Below, in pieces: positions 17,801 through 61,849 of a stretch of 64,000 nucleotides of DNA. The notes beneath the pieces were generated by a model, which had not been told where the DNA came from, did not search any database, and saw only the letters and a list, made by a program, of their open reading frames with translations. Positions within the stretch are counted from its first letter, which is position 1. Every line of letters starts with the position of its first letter. Made by a program: the position numbers and the translations under genes. This DNA comes from Pseudomonas sp. UBA2684 (GTDB lineage: Bacteria > Pseudomonadota > Gammaproteobacteria > Pseudomonadales > Pseudomonadaceae): contig DELY01000053.1 of NCBI GenBank assembly GCA_002354655.1, positions 20,476 to 84,475 on the forward strand, in the 5' to 3' direction.

Positions 17801-20800
17801 GAGATTGCCGCACCGCTGGAAAAACTGGTCAAAGAATTTAAAACCAACCTGATCCCCATGGATCTGGCTGAAGCCGAACTGTTGAGCAGCGCCGAGAAAC
17901 TCTTCCGGCTTGGCTTGGGCCAATTGGAAAACCGGCCGCTGGCGCCGTTGCCTGGCGCGGTAGAGTTCCTCGAACGTGCGCACAAGCTGCACCAGGAACG
18001 TCTGGAAACCGCGGAAAACAACCGTAAAGGTGAGCAGGGCGAAACCCGCGATCCGCAACTGATTGGTATTTTCCTCGCCGAAGGCATGGACATTCTGCTG
18101 GACGCCGAAGATTTGCTGCGCCGTTGGCGCGAGCATCCGTCGGAGCGCCAGGAGCTCAGTGCCCTGCTGGACGAGTTGACGACCCTTGGGCGCGGCGCGG
18201 AAATGGCCGAACTGCCGCAGATCGACGAGCTCTGCGAAGCCTTGCTTGACCTCTACGGCGCCGTCGAAGAGGGCAGCCTGGCCGTCAGCGAGCGCTTCTT
18301 CAGCGAAGCCGAACAGGCCCATGAAGCGCTGATCAGCATGATGGATCAGGTCGCCGCCGGGTTGCAGGTCAGCGCTGAGCCGGCGCGTGTCGAAGCGCTG
18401 CGCGCCCTGCTCGGTGAGGCGCTGGATCCTCGTGCCCTGGCGCTATTGTCCAGCGACGGCCAGGCCGGACTGGAGATTGTCGAGCTGGATGAGGCCACGG
18501 CGGCACTCGAACGGCATCAATGGTTGCGCGAGACGGCGGCTGAAGCGTCAAGCGATCTCGACGTGCAAGTCGCCGAAGAGGCGCCGAGCCAGGCATTCGA
18601 AGGCTTCTCGTCCGAGGCCGAGTCGACCGGCCCCGCCACCGTCTACGAGGCGCTGGATGAGGAGATGGTGACGATCTTCCTCGAAGAGGCGGTGGATATT
18701 CTGGAAAGTGCTGGCCAGTCGCTTGAGCGCTGGTTGGCCGAGCCTGACAACAAGGCCGCCCTGTCGTCGCTGCAGCGTGACCTGCATACCCTCAAGGGTG
18801 GCGCGCGCATGGCCGAGATTCGCCCGATTGGCGACCTGGCCCATGAGCTGGAATCCTTGTACGAGGGCTTGGTGGATCGGCGCTACAGCCATTCCCCGCA
18901 ACTCGCCGGCCTGCTGCAACAAAGCCACGACTGCCTGGCGCTGCTGCTTGAACAGCTGCAAAGCCGCGCCGAGCTGCATCAGCCGTTGGCGCTGATCGAG
19001 GCGATTCGAAATTTCCGCCAAGGTGGGGCGCAGAGCTTGTCTGCCGCCGTGGCGCAGCCCGAGACTGATTTCGAAGCCGAAGCCGAAGCCGAAGCCGAAG
19101 CCGAAGCCGAAGCCGAAGCCGAAGCCGAAGCCGAACTTGCGCTTGAAGAGCCGCAAGACCTTGCGGCGCTGCCCTTGGCGCAGGTCGACGATGAAGCGAT
19201 CGTTGACGAACCCGCACAGGCATATGAGGTCGAGCCGCTGACCGCCCTGGCGGCGCACGTCGCGGCCGATGCCGTCGATCCTGCGGCGCCGACGGCCGAG
19301 GATAGTCCGCCATCGGCAGTGCCTGTGGTCGAGGAGGAGCGCGACGAAGAGTTGGTAGAAATCTTCCTCGAAGAAGGTTTCGACATCATCGACAGTTCCG
19401 GCGCCGCGTTGCAGCGTTGGATGGACGACGTCGACAACAGCCTTGAACTGGAAGCCCTGCAACGCGACCTGCATACCCTCAAGGGCGGTGCGCGGATGGC
19501 GGAGATCCGCGAGATCGGCGATCTCGCGCATGAACTGGAATTCCTCTACGAAGGGCTGTGCGGGGGGCGTTTGCGGGCCAGTCAGGCCTTGTTCGGTCTG
19601 CTTCAGGCCTGCCACGATCGCCTGGCCGAGATGCTCGACGCGGTGCGCGGCAAGCGTCCGGTACCGAGTGGCGACGCGCTGATCGAGACGATCAAACGCT
19701 TCCGCGCCAACCCCGATGAACAACTGAGCATGCCGTCCGCGGTGCAGCTCAAGGCGGCGCTCGCCAGCCAGAATGAGGATGACGCCGAGTCGGACATCCT
19801 CGATATTTTCCTGGAAGAGGCCGACGACCTGCTGGAGTCCATGGAGGCCGCTATCGGCCGTCTGGAGGACGGCCGCGAGGATGGCGGTGCACTCGATGAT
19901 TTGCTGCGCATCCTGCACACCCTCAAAGGCGGTGCTCGCCTGGCTGGGCAGAAACGCCTGGGTGATTTGAGCCACGATTTGGAATCGCACCTGACGGACG
20001 CCCAGCAGCAAGGCGCGCCGTGGCCGGAAAGCTTGTTCCTCGACGTGCAGTCCGGTTTCGAAGGGCTGCAGAAGGAGCTCGACCAACTGCGCCAGCGCCT
20101 GCACGACAGCCTGGCTGCGGAAAGCGCGGAGCCGGTGCAGGGCGAGGCCGTTGTGGCGCCGACGCAATTACCGAGCCTGGCCGCGCCGATTATTGCCGCC
20201 AGTGATCGGCCGACTCACGAACTAGTAGCCAAGGTGCTGCCGTTCGTCCGTCGTGCCGAAGAGGCGGCCCAGGAAGCCGCGTCCCGCCGAGCTCCGCAAG
20301 AGCTGGTCAAGGTGCCGGCGGAGTTGCTTGAGGGTCTGGTTAATCTGGCGGGTGAAACCTCGATTTTCCGCGGTCGGGTCGAGCAGCAGGTCAGCGACTT
20401 CGGTTTCACCCTGAGCGAGATGGAAGCCACCATCGACCGCGTGCGCGATCAGTTGCGGCGCCTGGATATCGAAACCCAGGCGCAGATTCTCAGCCGCTAC
20501 CAGGCCGAGGCCGAACGCGCCGGCTATGAAGATTTCGACCCGTTGGAAATGGACCGTCACTCGCAGTTGCAGCAACTGTCGCGCGCGCTGTTCGAGTCGG
20601 CCTCCGACTTGCTCGACCTGAAGGAAACCCTGGCCACGCGTAACCGCGATGCGGAAACCTTGTTACTGCAACAGGCGCGGGTCAACACCGAATTGCAAGA
20701 AGGCCTGATGCGCACCCGCATGGTGCCGTTCGACCGTCTGGTGCCGCGCTTGCGTCGTATCGTGCGCCAGGTGGCGGGCGAACTGGGCAAGCAAGTCGAA

Positions 20801-32356: not shown

Positions 32357-33202
32357 TCAGCGTGGCAGCTTGAGGTTATTCCAGATCGCCAGGCTCGGCT
32401 CGGCCTGGTTCAGGGTGTAGAAGTGCAGCCCTGGCGCGCCGCCTTGCAGCAGACGTTCGCACATCTCGCTGATCACCTGCTCGCCATAGGCCTGGATGCT
32501 CTCGATGTCGTCACCGTAAGCCTCCAGTTGCTTGCGCACCCAGCGTGGAATTTCCGCGCCGCAGGCGTCGGAGAAGCGCGCCAGCTTGCTGTAGTTGGTG
32601 ATCGGCATGATGCCGGGCACCACCGGGATATTCACCCCGAGTTTCTGCACGCGCTCGACGAAGTAGAAGTAGCTGTCGGCGTTGAAGAAGTACTGGGTGA
32701 TCGCACTGTCGGCGCCGGCCCGGGCCTTGCGCACGAAATTGGCGATATCGTCCTCGAAATTGCGTGCCTGCGGATGCATCTCCGGGTAAGCGGCGATTTC
32801 GATATGGAAGTGGTCGCCGCTCTCTTGGCGAATGAAGCTGACCAGTTCGTTGGCGTAGCGCAGCTCGCCGCTGGCCATGCCCATGCCGGACGGCAGGTCG
32901 CCACGCAGGGCGACGATGCGTTTGATCCCGGCGTTCTGGTACAGGGCCAGCAGCTCGCGCAGCTCGGCCTTGCTGTCACCGACGCAGGACAGGTGCGGTG
33001 CGGTCGGCACCTTGATCTCGCCATCGAGTTGCAGCACGGTGTTCAGCGTGCGGTCGCGGGTGGAACCACCGGCACCGTAGGTGCAGGAGAAGAAATCCGG
33101 ATTGTAGCTGGCCAGTTGGCGCGCCACGTTCAGCAGTTTTTCGTGCCCGGCTTCGGTCTTGGTCGGAAAGAACTCGAAGCTGTAACGGCGTTCTTGGGAC
33201 AT
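32357..33202 (-). CDS. metF: 5,10-methylenetetrahydrofolate reductase MetF
   Basis: A 281-residue FAD-dependent TIM-barrel enzyme making 5-methyl-tetrahydrofolate for methionine synthesis. Recognisable segments are RRYSFEFFPTKTEAG, CTYGAGGSTRDRT, ALRGDLPSG, and QYFFNADSYFYFVER. The start MSQERRYSFEFF is chosen because it matches the family; the frame continues upstream into an intergenic repeat, which would be spurious. It is downstream of sahH on the same strand, a classic metF-sahH linkage, though a palindromic repeat separates them. Confidence 0.96.
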   Translation of the reverse strand: MSQERRYSFEFFPTKTEAGHEKLLNVARQLASYNPDFFSCTYGAGGSTRDRTLNTVLQLDGEIKVPTAPHLSCVGDSKAELRELLALYQNAGIKRIVALRGDLPSGMGMASGELRYANELVSFIRQESGDHFHIEIAAYPEMHPQARNFEDDIANFVRKARAGADSAITQYFFNADSYFYFVERVQKLGVNIPVVPGIMPITNYSKLARFSDACGAEIPRWVRKQLEAYGDDIESIQAYGEQVISEMCERLLQGGAPGLHFYTLNQAEPSLAIWNNLKLPR

Positions 33203-33219
33203 AAAGAGTTTCCACGTTC

Positions 33220-33293
33220 GTAGGGTGGACGTGCGCAGCTTGTCCACCGTCATGCTCAAGAAGGTGGACAAGCCTTCGGCATGTCCACCCTAC
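33220..33293. repeat. Palindromic intergenic repeat, GTAGGGTGGACAAG type
   Basis: It starts GTAGGGTGGAC and ends with TTCGGCATGTCCACCCTAC. The arms are complementary over about 30 bases, with an inner CTTGTCCACC/GGTGGACAAG pair. It fills the gap between sahH and metF. The same palindrome forms the second half of each unit in the 60.5-61.1 kb tandem array. Confidence 0.8.
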
Positions 33294-33304: not shown

Positions 33305-34832
<1,528 letters not shown>

Positions 34833-59321: not shown

Positions 59322-60464
59322 ATGCGCATCGGCGTGCCCAAGGAAATCAAGAACCATGAATACCGTGTCGGCCTGACGCCGCAATCGGTGGCCGAACTAA
59401 GCGCCCTCGGCCACGAACTGTGGGTCGAGACCCAGGCCGGTGCTGCCATCGGTTTCAGCGATGCCGATTACCAGGCCGCCGGCGCGCAGATTGCCGCCAG
59501 TGGCGAGGCGCTGTTCGCCACGGCGCAACTGATCGTCAAGGTCAAGGAACCGCTGGCGGTGGAGCGCGCGCGGCTGCGTCCGCAGCACACCCTGTTCACC
59601 TATTTGCACCTGGCGCCGGATCGCCCGCAGACCGACGAACTGATGGCCAGCGGCGCCACCTGCATCGCCTATGAAACCGTCACCGACGACCATGGCCGGC
59701 TACCGCTGCTGGCGCCGATGTCCGAGGTGGCCGGGCGCATGTCGATCCAGGCCGGCGCTAATTGCCTGGAAAAAGCCAAGGGCGGTCGCGGCGTGCTGCT
59801 CGGCGGGGTGCCGGGCGTGGCGCCGGGCAAGGTGGTGATTCTCGGCGGTGGCGTGGTCGGTAGTCATGCCCTGGCCATGGCGGTGGGCCTGGGCGCGGAT
59901 GTCACGGTGCTGGACAAGAGCGTCGATGCGCTGCGCCGGCTGGATGCGCAATACGGCAACCGCATCACCACGCTGTATTCGACCCGCGCGGCCTTGCGCG
60001 AGCAGATACTGGCGGCGGATCTGGTGATTGGCGGCGTGCTGATTCCCGGCGCCGCAGCGCCCAAGCTGATCAGCGCCGAGATGGTCCGGCAGATGCAGCC
60101 GGGCGCGGTGCTGGTGGACGTCGCCATCGACCAGGGCGGCTGCGCGGAAACCTCGAAGGCCACCACCCACGCCGAGCCGACCTATGTGGTCGACGACGTG
60201 GTGCACTATTGCGTGGCCAATATGCCCGGCGCGGTGGCGCGCACCTCGACCCTGGCGCTGAACAACGCCACCCTGCCGTTCGTGATCGCCCTGGCGGAAA
60301 AGGGCACCCGGCGGGCCCTGGAAGAAGACCCGCACCTGTGCAACGGCTTGAACGTGGCCAAAGGCGTGATCACCTGCGGCAGTGTGGCGGAGGCCCACGG
60401 TTTGCCGTTCCAGTCAGCCACCAGCGTGCTGGAGCATTTGCAGGGCACCCACAACGTGCGTTGA
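59322..60464 (+). CDS. ald: Alanine dehydrogenase
   Basis: A 380-residue NAD-dependent enzyme interconverting L-alanine with pyruvate and ammonia. Typical regions are [36 protein letters not shown], the dinucleotide fold [30 protein letters not shown], and [25 protein letters not shown] precedes the ATG at 59322. The tandem repeat array starts immediately after its stop codon. Confidence 0.97.
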
Positions 60465-61160
60465 GAACGGCGGCGCATCGCGCTTGCTGCTCGTCGCCGG
60501 CCGCGTCATGGCGTTGTTCAGAAACGTAGGGCGTACATGGCGAAGCCTTGTCCGCCAGGGTGTTTGTTTTGGTGGACAAGCCTGCGGCATGTCCACCCTA
60601 CGCCTTAGGAATGGCGGCGCATCGCGCTTGCTGCTCGTCGCCGGCCGGGTCATGGCGTTGCTCAGAACTGTAGGGCGTACATGGCGAAGCCTTGTCCGCC
60701 ATGGTGTTTTTTTTGGTGGACAAGCCTGCGGCATGTCCACCCTACGCCTTAGGAATGGCGGTGCCTCGCAACCTGCTGCTCGGCGCCGGCCGCGTCATGG
60801 CGTTGTTCAGAAACGTCGGGCATACATGGCGAAGCCTTGCCCGCCAGGGTGTTTGTTTTGGTGGACAAGCCTGCGGCATGTCCACCCTACGCCGTAGGAA
60901 TGGCGGTGCCTCGCGACTTTCTGCTCGGCGCCGGCCGCGTCATGGCGTTGTTCAGAAACGTAGGGCGTACATGGCGAAGCCTTGTCCGCCATGCTGTCTG
61001 TCTTGGTGGACAAGCCTGCGGCATGTCCACCCTACGCTGTAGGAATGGCGGTGCCTCGCAACCTGCTGCTCGGCGCCGGCCGCGCCATGGTGTTGCTCAG
61101 AACTGTAGGGCGTACATGGCGAAGCCTTGTCCGCCAGGGTGTTTGTTTTGGATGTCCACC
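60465..61160 (+). repeat. Tandem array of five roughly 145 bp units between ald and the dioxygenase gene
   Basis: Units begin at about 60465, 60608, 60752, 60897 and 61042 (periods near 144-145 bp) and are about 90% alike. Each has two parts. The first 60 or so bases read AATGGCGGTGCCTCGC ... CTGCTCGGCGCCGGCCGCGT-CATGGCGTTGTTCAG and resemble the 5' coding end of the dioxygenase gene downstream. The second part is the palindromic GTAGGGCGTACATGGCG ... GGCATGTCCACCCTAC element, related to the one at 33220. The fifth unit lacks part of its right arm. Differences in period (144 against 145) break the reading frame between units, so the array is not one gene. It fills the 731-base gap with nothing else recognised. 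Confidence 0.9.
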
Positions 61161-61195
61161 CGGTTTTTAGCGCGGCGGGCGGCGGAGGTTAAAAC

Positions 61196-61849
61196 ATGGC
61201 GTATGCGTTGTTAGGACGTCGCGACTTATTGCTCGGTGCCGGTAGCGCCATGCTGTTGTTCAGCGCGCCGGGCGCCTTCGCCGAGCGGTTGCTGACGCCG
61301 GCGCAAACGCTCGGGCCGTTTTACCCCGACGCGTTGCCGTTGGATCGCGACAACGACCTGCTGATTGTCGACGACCACCTGACCCCGGCCAGCGGCACCG
61401 TGGTGCATTTGCATGGGCAGATCGTCGATCCGCGCGGCACGCCGCTCAAGGGCGCCCTGGTGGAAATCTGGCAGGTCGACGCCAACGGCATCTACCTGCA
61501 CAGCCGTGGCGGCGCGCGCAGTCGGCGCGACCCGAACTTCCAGGGTTATGGCCGTTTTCTCACCGCCAGTTCGGGCGAATACCGCTTTCGCACCATTCGC
61601 CCGGTGAGCTATCCGGGGCGCACGCCGCATATCCATGTTGCCGTGACCTTGCCTGGCCAGCCGCGTTTCGCCACTCAGTGCTACATCCGTGGCGAGCCGC
61701 GCAACCTGCGCGACGGCATCCTCAATGCGCTGGCCGATCCACGCGCGCGCGAGCTGCTGATCGTGCCTTTTGCGCCGCTCGCCAACTCGGCGCTCGGCGA
61801 GCAGGTGGCGCGTTTCGATATCGTCCTCGGGCTCACTCCCGCGTCCTGA
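61196..61849 (+). CDS. Exported intradiol ring-cleavage dioxygenase (protocatechuate 3,4-dioxygenase-like)
   Basis: A 217-residue protein with a twin-arginine-like leader (GRRDLLLGAGSAMLLFS; Arg8-Arg9) and a dioxygenase core. It has LTPAQTLGPFYPD, VVHLHGQIVDPRGTPLKGALVEIWQVDANGIY, NFQGYGRFLTASSGEYRFRTIRPVSYPGRTPHIHVAV, and FATQCYIRGEP. The four expected non-heme Fe(III) ligands are present: Tyr100, Tyr139, His145 and His147. Export by Tat suggests the metal is inserted in the cytoplasm. The substrate is unknown; no catechol pathway genes are nearby. GGAGG lies eight bases before the ATG, just after the tandem array, so its promoter must be in or upstream of the repeats. Confidence 0.88.
   Translation: MAYALLGRRDLLLGAGSAMLLFSAPGAFAERLLTPAQTLGPFYPDALPLDRDNDLLIVDDHLTPASGTVVHLHGQIVDPRGTPLKGALVEIWQVDANGIYLHSRGGARSRRDPNFQGYGRFLTASSGEYRFRTIRPVSYPGRTPHIHVAVTLPGQPRFATQCYIRGEPRNLRDGILNALADPRARELLIVPFAPLANSALGEQVARFDIVLGLTPAS

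Follow-up and report, generated by a model that had tools for sequence, protein, structure and literature searches.

A tandem REPIN array whose repeated unit probably took in the 5′ coding end of an adjoining dioxygenase gene in Pseudomonas sp. UBA2684

The gap between ald, which encodes alanine dehydrogenase, and an intradiol dioxygenase-like gene in Pseudomonas sp. UBA2684 holds a tandem array in which a palindrome alternates with a stretch resembling the start of the dioxygenase gene. How does a composite unit of this kind come to be repeated? The array was analysed within a window of 64,000 nucleotides (contig DELY01000053.1, positions 20,476 to 84,475, renumbered here from 1) of a draft assembly comprising 4,833,297 bases in 59 contigs. 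Each unit is a REPIN, a pair of inverted repetitive extragenic palindromic (REP) sequences, together with a diverged copy of the gene start, and REPs of this family are scattered across the genome. The array is probably a tandemly amplified REPIN whose repeated unit took in adjoining DNA containing the 5′ coding end of the dioxygenase gene.

The array and its spacers

From the ald stop codon, ending at 60464, to the dioxygenase ATG at 61196 lie 731 bases, nearly all of which read as five units of about 145 bp spanning 60465 to 61161. Tandem Repeats Finder (TRF) placed the array at 60485-61151 with a period of 145, 4.6 copies and 91% matches, confirming together with the reading of the sequence the five units that a preliminary description of the locus had recognised. 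Because the assembly is a draft, their number is provisional. Each unit consists of a spacer of 61-68 bases followed by a 77-base palindromic element, the fifth palindrome being internally deleted; for most units, spacers are 83-94% identical to one another and REPINs 91-100%. The features are as follows.

59322..60464, plus strand: ald, alanine dehydrogenase (Pfam AlaDh_PNT_N/C)
60465..60525, plus strand: spacer of unit 1; gene-start-like core 60478-60521 with a 1-base deletion, local alignment score 38
60526..60602, unstranded: REPIN 1, two inverted REPs; REP cores at 60526 (plus) and 60586 (minus); hairpin −23.1 kcal/mol, z −5.87
60603..60669, plus strand: spacer of unit 2; core 60622-60665, the weakest, score 28, 1-base deletion
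60670..60746, unstranded: REPIN 2, with REP core matches
60747..60814, plus strand: spacer of unit 3; core 60766-60810, 35/45 against the gene
60815..60891, unstranded: REPIN 3, head mutated to GTCGGG, with REP core matches
60892..60959, plus strand: spacer of unit 4; core 60911-60955, 37/45 against the gene, the best copy
60960..61036, unstranded: REPIN 4; hairpin −23.3 kcal/mol, z −5.90
61037..61104, plus strand: spacer of unit 5; core 61056-61100, 36/45 against the gene
61105..61161, unstranded: REPIN 5, which has an internal deletion and no longer forms the long hairpin (z −1.73 for 61105-61160)
61162..61195, plus strand: 34 unrepeated bases 5′ of the gene, with ribosome-binding-like GGCGGAGG at 61181-61188 (by eye)
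61196..61849, plus strand: intradiol dioxygenase-like gene with a signal-like N-terminus (Pfam Dioxygenase_C, 1.1e-25); probable source of the copied core at 61219-61263

Alignment of the spacers with the dioxygenase gene matched a 45-base core to 61219-61263, with 35, 37 and 36 identities in units 3, 4 and 5 (scores 40, 50 and 45); the value for unit 4 reproduces the count first given for it, 37 of about 45 bases. Units 1 and 2 each align with one gap, corresponding to a 1-base deletion, and their scores are 38 and 28. Dinucleotide shuffling (2,000 shuffles per unit, units 1-4) gave maxima of 35, 32, 33 and 34 against observed scores of 38, 28, 40 and 50. Units 1, 3 and 4 thus exceed their shuffles, while unit 2 taken alone does not (28 against a maximum of 32). 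Since the units are copies of one another, the five constitute a single observation, of which unit 4 is the best preserved.

Units were also scored against tiles of natural DNA. Among 2,956 tiles from the genome itself, some of their loci overlapping, the gene-start tile ranked first for all four units compared, with 38 against 31 for unit 1, 40 against 34 for unit 3, 50 against 31 for unit 4 and 45 against 40 for unit 5. A broader set comprised 9,314 tiles on both strands (699,848 bases from the window and from loci of many bacteria, some overlapping). Here the gene start was clearly first for unit 4 (50, with at most 37 in the other 9,313), ahead by a single point for unit 3 (40 against 39) and tied at 45 for unit 5, the runner-up for units 3 and 5 being the orthologous dioxygenase start of Pseudomonas sp. 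AOB-7. For unit 1 the gene start tied at 38 with an unrelated tile, and for unit 2 it fell outside the top ten. A longer homology, reaching upstream through TGCGTTG, TTAGGA or ATGGCG shared with the first 23 bases of the gene, was rejected: mononucleotide shuffles matched its score in 162, 361 and 338 of 5,000 cases.

The palindromic half of the unit consists of two inverted REPs, GTAGGG...CCCTAC; one end reads GTCG in unit 3 and one end is missing in unit 5. Folding was performed for two of the four full REPINs (1 and 4) and for the deleted copy (REPIN 5). As single DNA strands, REPINs 1 and 4 each form one long hairpin, equalled by none of 200 shuffles. The REP core has 246 matches in the genome at up to 2 mismatches, compared with 9 for a reversed-pattern control. 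One further REPIN of this family lies within the window, as follows.

32357-33271, minus strand: metF; the 5′ end of the open reading frame (ORF) as listed is overlapped by the REPIN
33220..33293, unstranded: further REPIN of the same REP family, between metF and sahH, with REP core matches
33305-34729, minus strand: sahH, the other neighbour of this REPIN

The palindrome was thus correctly equated at the outset with the element between sahH and metF, and the core alignment and the 246 REP matches bear out the view that every unit combines a copy of the gene start with a palindrome found across the genome. Three genes in the genome exceed the cut-off of NF047646, the REP-associated tyrosine transposase (RAYT) family. 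With inverted REPs forming a long hairpin, GTAG heads, dispersed copies and RAYT genes encoded in the same genome, the palindrome fits the definition of a REPIN given by Bertels and Rainey (PMC3116915), and its repetition along with flanking sequence makes the array an ordered tandem cluster. Two Rfam matches were discarded, their scores falling far below the gathering scores (24.3 against 40 and 20.3 against 100).

Origin of the repeated unit

Orthologous loci were compared in order to place the spacer core: 34 in all, namely L034-L056 (taken from 80 loci) and L114-L124, where L114 is the gene itself. From these, eleven orthologues of equal N-terminal length were selected, the AOB-7 locus (L041) not being included. 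Over the 45 bases, units 3-5 share 19-28 identities with the 11 orthologues and the gene itself shares 20-25, while units and gene share 35-37. On the strength of these identities, the core would most likely have been copied from the gene of its own lineage, or exchanged with it, after the split from the 11 orthologues.

A search with the whole unit returned at least 76 matches in the genome, the leader half being covered only by the five array units (40 of 158 first-look candidates scored); matches outside the array begin at query base 56 or later. Among the candidates scored, the leader-like half was therefore never seen apart from a dioxygenase gene, an occurrence that the preliminary description had held would count against the relationship. 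The whole unit had no match in other genomes among 199 of the genus (threshold 1e-15) or 144 relatives (1e-8), although these are soft negatives, as the two sets overlap, include the genome itself and were scored for four or five candidates per genome.

After four loci (L115, L118, L119 and L120) had been set aside as repeats of others, 30 of the 34 remained; ald lies upstream within the fetched flank in 18 of these, the present genome included, and not in the other 12. In the 17 other genomes that share this gene arrangement, the interval measures 6-254 bp, compared with 731 bp here, and in 9 of them only 27-46 bp separate the genes. Scoring was possible for 16 of these intervals; they matched the gene start with 11-22, compared with 50 here, and none was found to hold a copy of it. 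These other genomes therefore have neither room for such an array nor a gene-start copy, and the array was seen in this genome alone among the 18. REP-head motifs, of other types by eye, stand in the same interval in 2 of the 17 (L049 and L123); the interval seems to be a place where REPs land repeatedly.

Four further tandem arrays were seen in the genome, on contigs C33 (period 155), C1 (157), C37 (102) and C31 (158); others on contigs beyond the matches listed may have been missed. The C33 array (L125:1064-1827) has five REPIN units, and its repeat takes in the stop of betA (choline dehydrogenase, NF002550) along with the codons just before it. Two of its spacers, tested against the betA end, scored 53 and 31, compared with 28 and 27 for the best other of 2,268 tiles. 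For this array TRF also reported a higher-order period of 311 bp. The repeat of the C1 array (L126:1308-1901, 3.8 copies) begins with the final three codons and the stop of an upstream CxxCxxCC gene, and these 12 coding bases pass uninterrupted into the flanking DNA that is repeated (score 59 over 48 alignment columns). Two arrays thus reach the 3′ ends of neighbouring genes, and the unit in the window accordingly fits a local duplication that takes along whatever DNA adjoins the REPIN.

An array may also have been caught at its beginning. The REPIN at C33:35303 is flanked by 46-bp direct repeats (L179:402-618, corresponding to C33:35211-35427) and is perhaps an array of two units. Direct repeats astride every REP site were looked for and did not emerge. 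The survey took 40 sites from 100 listed of the 246 matches, a list confined to zero-mismatch matches up to contig C40; one site (L143) was dropped after its masked bases had matched each other. Of the 39 left, only L179 was clear (score 61) and L144 doubtful (39), the next scoring 26. A cross-locus control of 1,560 pairs, L143 included, gave top scores of 56, 45 and 37 and a 99th percentile of 30.

A long hairpin makes slippage and unequal exchange more likely, and homologous exchange can alter the number of units as soon as there are two. The array may accordingly be pictured as follows. A REPIN would have arrived between ald and the dioxygenase gene, and slippage or unequal exchange at its hairpin would have duplicated the REPIN together with the gene start several times. 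A single intact gene would have persisted at the right-hand edge, with surplus gene starts building up to its left; these copies, free of constraint, would have decayed, and one REPIN would have lost its hairpin through an internal deletion. The left edge of the array was presumably trimmed against ald.

Several observations weigh against this account. The units lack the ribosome-binding stretch of the gene, and the array opens with a leader copy and not with a REPIN, so that extra deletions are needed. Units 3-5 differ from the gene at 8-10 of 45 positions, more than most units differ among themselves, which places the first duplication earlier than the amplification. Units 1 and 2 lie near or below chance level. 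Within about 1.5 kb of the three RAYT genes, the REP of the array has one weak match, probably due to chance; for the RAYT gene on C30, the nearest REPs among the matches listed are 3.3 kb and about 5.7 kb away. We do not take this as excluding a REPIN, because RAYT genes without REP flanks occur in several species (PMC3733652). As for the other arrays, the 12 coding bases of C1 do not stand out alone, and no gene end was noticed by eye in the units of C37 and C31, the latter locus (L137) containing masked bases.

Alternative explanations and effects on expression

The preliminary description had derived the array from a former gene copy into which the palindrome was inserted, followed by tandem amplification. 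Amplification is the probable course here too; the former copy is the less likely part, as a tandem duplication of REPIN plus gene start needs fewer steps. In its full form, this alternative holds that a complete second dioxygenase gene once stood here, that a REPIN inserted into its 5′ end, and that after loss of the remainder the leader and REPIN were amplified together. It would account directly for an array that begins at the ald stop with a leader copy and runs in the order leader then REPIN, and for copies in units 3-5 that have diverged from the gene by 18-22%. However, no trace of the remainder is discernible by eye in 60465-61195, the only dioxygenase match in the genome at 1e-30 is the gene itself, and no more than 254 bp separates ald from the dioxygenase gene in the 17 other genomes compared. 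The codon pattern speaks against it too. The synonymous third-position changes pointed out earlier do exist, at 3-4 codons per unit, but carry no weight as an argument: differences between units 3-5 and the gene number 3-6, 1-3 and 4 at codon positions 1, 2 and 3, and without a third-position excess the copies are not shown to have evolved as coding sequence. We regard a lost second gene as unlikely.

A different proposal concerns function and is compatible with an origin by tandem amplification: that the array is a candidate working control region, in which the number of hairpins sets read-through or message stability and copy number tunes the exported enzyme. Four REPINs able to form long hairpins (two of them folded) do lie between co-directional genes, which are only 27-46 bp apart in the 9 genomes mentioned above, and REPs have been proposed to act on messages (PMC3733652). 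Against this, no sigma-70-like promoter was found in 60380-61300 (0, against 0.2 in shuffles), a segment in which terminator-like sites number 4, compared with 1.7 (standard deviation 1.4) in shuffles, the dioxygenase gene keeps its own ribosome-binding-like site, and other genomes with the same gene order do without an array. The idea that copy number tunes expression, put forward at the outset, was therefore not sustained, and a control region has little in its favour. Most likely the array has no specific effect; at most, by analogy, its hairpins may act as REPs generally may, stabilising or attenuating a message between ald and the downstream gene.

A highly speculative extension sees amplification as repeatedly copying the starts and stops of adjacent genes into REPIN arrays, from which signal peptides could be altered by gene conversion or new start sites supplied; the unusually diverged signal region of the dioxygenase (20-25 of 45 identities to the 11 orthologues), shared with the array, would then result partly from exchange with it. 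Finally, a likeness due solely to convergence of GC-rich, signal-peptide-like codons could draw on units 1 and 2, near or below the chance maximum, and on the AOB-7 start outside the 11 orthologues (45 with unit 5, and 39 against 40 with unit 3), but is scarcely credible given the lead of unit 4 over all other tiles, a match on the same strand adjoining the very gene, and units much closer to that gene than it is to the 11 orthologues.

Flanking genes and known REPIN clusters

The Ald C-terminus extends six or seven residues beyond that of the relatives compared. Within 60430-60464, the extra residues begin at a degenerate REP-head-like GCAGGG, GCAGGGCACCC (by eye), perhaps what is left of a leftmost REPIN since lost; the extension hints that the left edge was trimmed or altered. 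On the other side of the array, GCGGAGG is also found 5′ of the dioxygenase start in many of the relatives compared. The dioxygenase protein falls under the cut-offs of all five NCBIfam equivalogs compared. Its N-terminus contains GRRDLLLGAG (by eye), which we take to be a candidate twin-arginine (Tat) signal motif. The leader ORFs of the array were considered as decoy signal peptides and rejected: they read P-R in place of the twin arginine, a ribosome-binding site at a usual distance could not be seen by eye, and the 145-bp period shifts the frame. Elsewhere in the window, at 19072-19135, TRF found a perfect 6-base tandem repeat, CGAAGC, in 10.7 copies.

In Escherichia coli, BIME-2 (bacterial interspersed mosaic elements) are tandem arrays of alternating REPs with short, family-specific spacers; in the genome studied here, by contrast, each array has its own spacer drawn from its locus. 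Closer counterparts are known. In P. fluorescens SBW25, near-identical REPINs are repeated in tandem along with their flanks in 16 clusters, the largest, of four REPINs plus one REP, exceeding 700 bp (PMC3116915). The present REPINs are likewise tandemly repeated with flanking DNA, whereas their REP sequence differs, and the accessible text of that paper does not describe the SBW25 flank as the 5′ coding end of a gene. GTAG-tagged REPs comprise 24 families, and their large clusters mostly consist of single or dimeric palindromes repeated along with stretches of flanking sequence (PMC3733652); the inverted dimers of GTAG-headed palindromes described here resemble them.

Tandem REPIN clusters repeated with flanking DNA are therefore already known. 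In the literature searched, outside which most subscription journals lie, no other case was found of a repeated flank traceable to the 5′ coding end of a neighbour. The locus offers a clear case of a tandem REPIN array with a spacer traceable to the coding sequence of the adjoining gene. It helps to reconstruct how such arrays grow, by local duplication together with flanking DNA rather than by repeated insertion of bare REPINs, and it cautions against annotating ORFs in their spacers as small signal-peptide genes.
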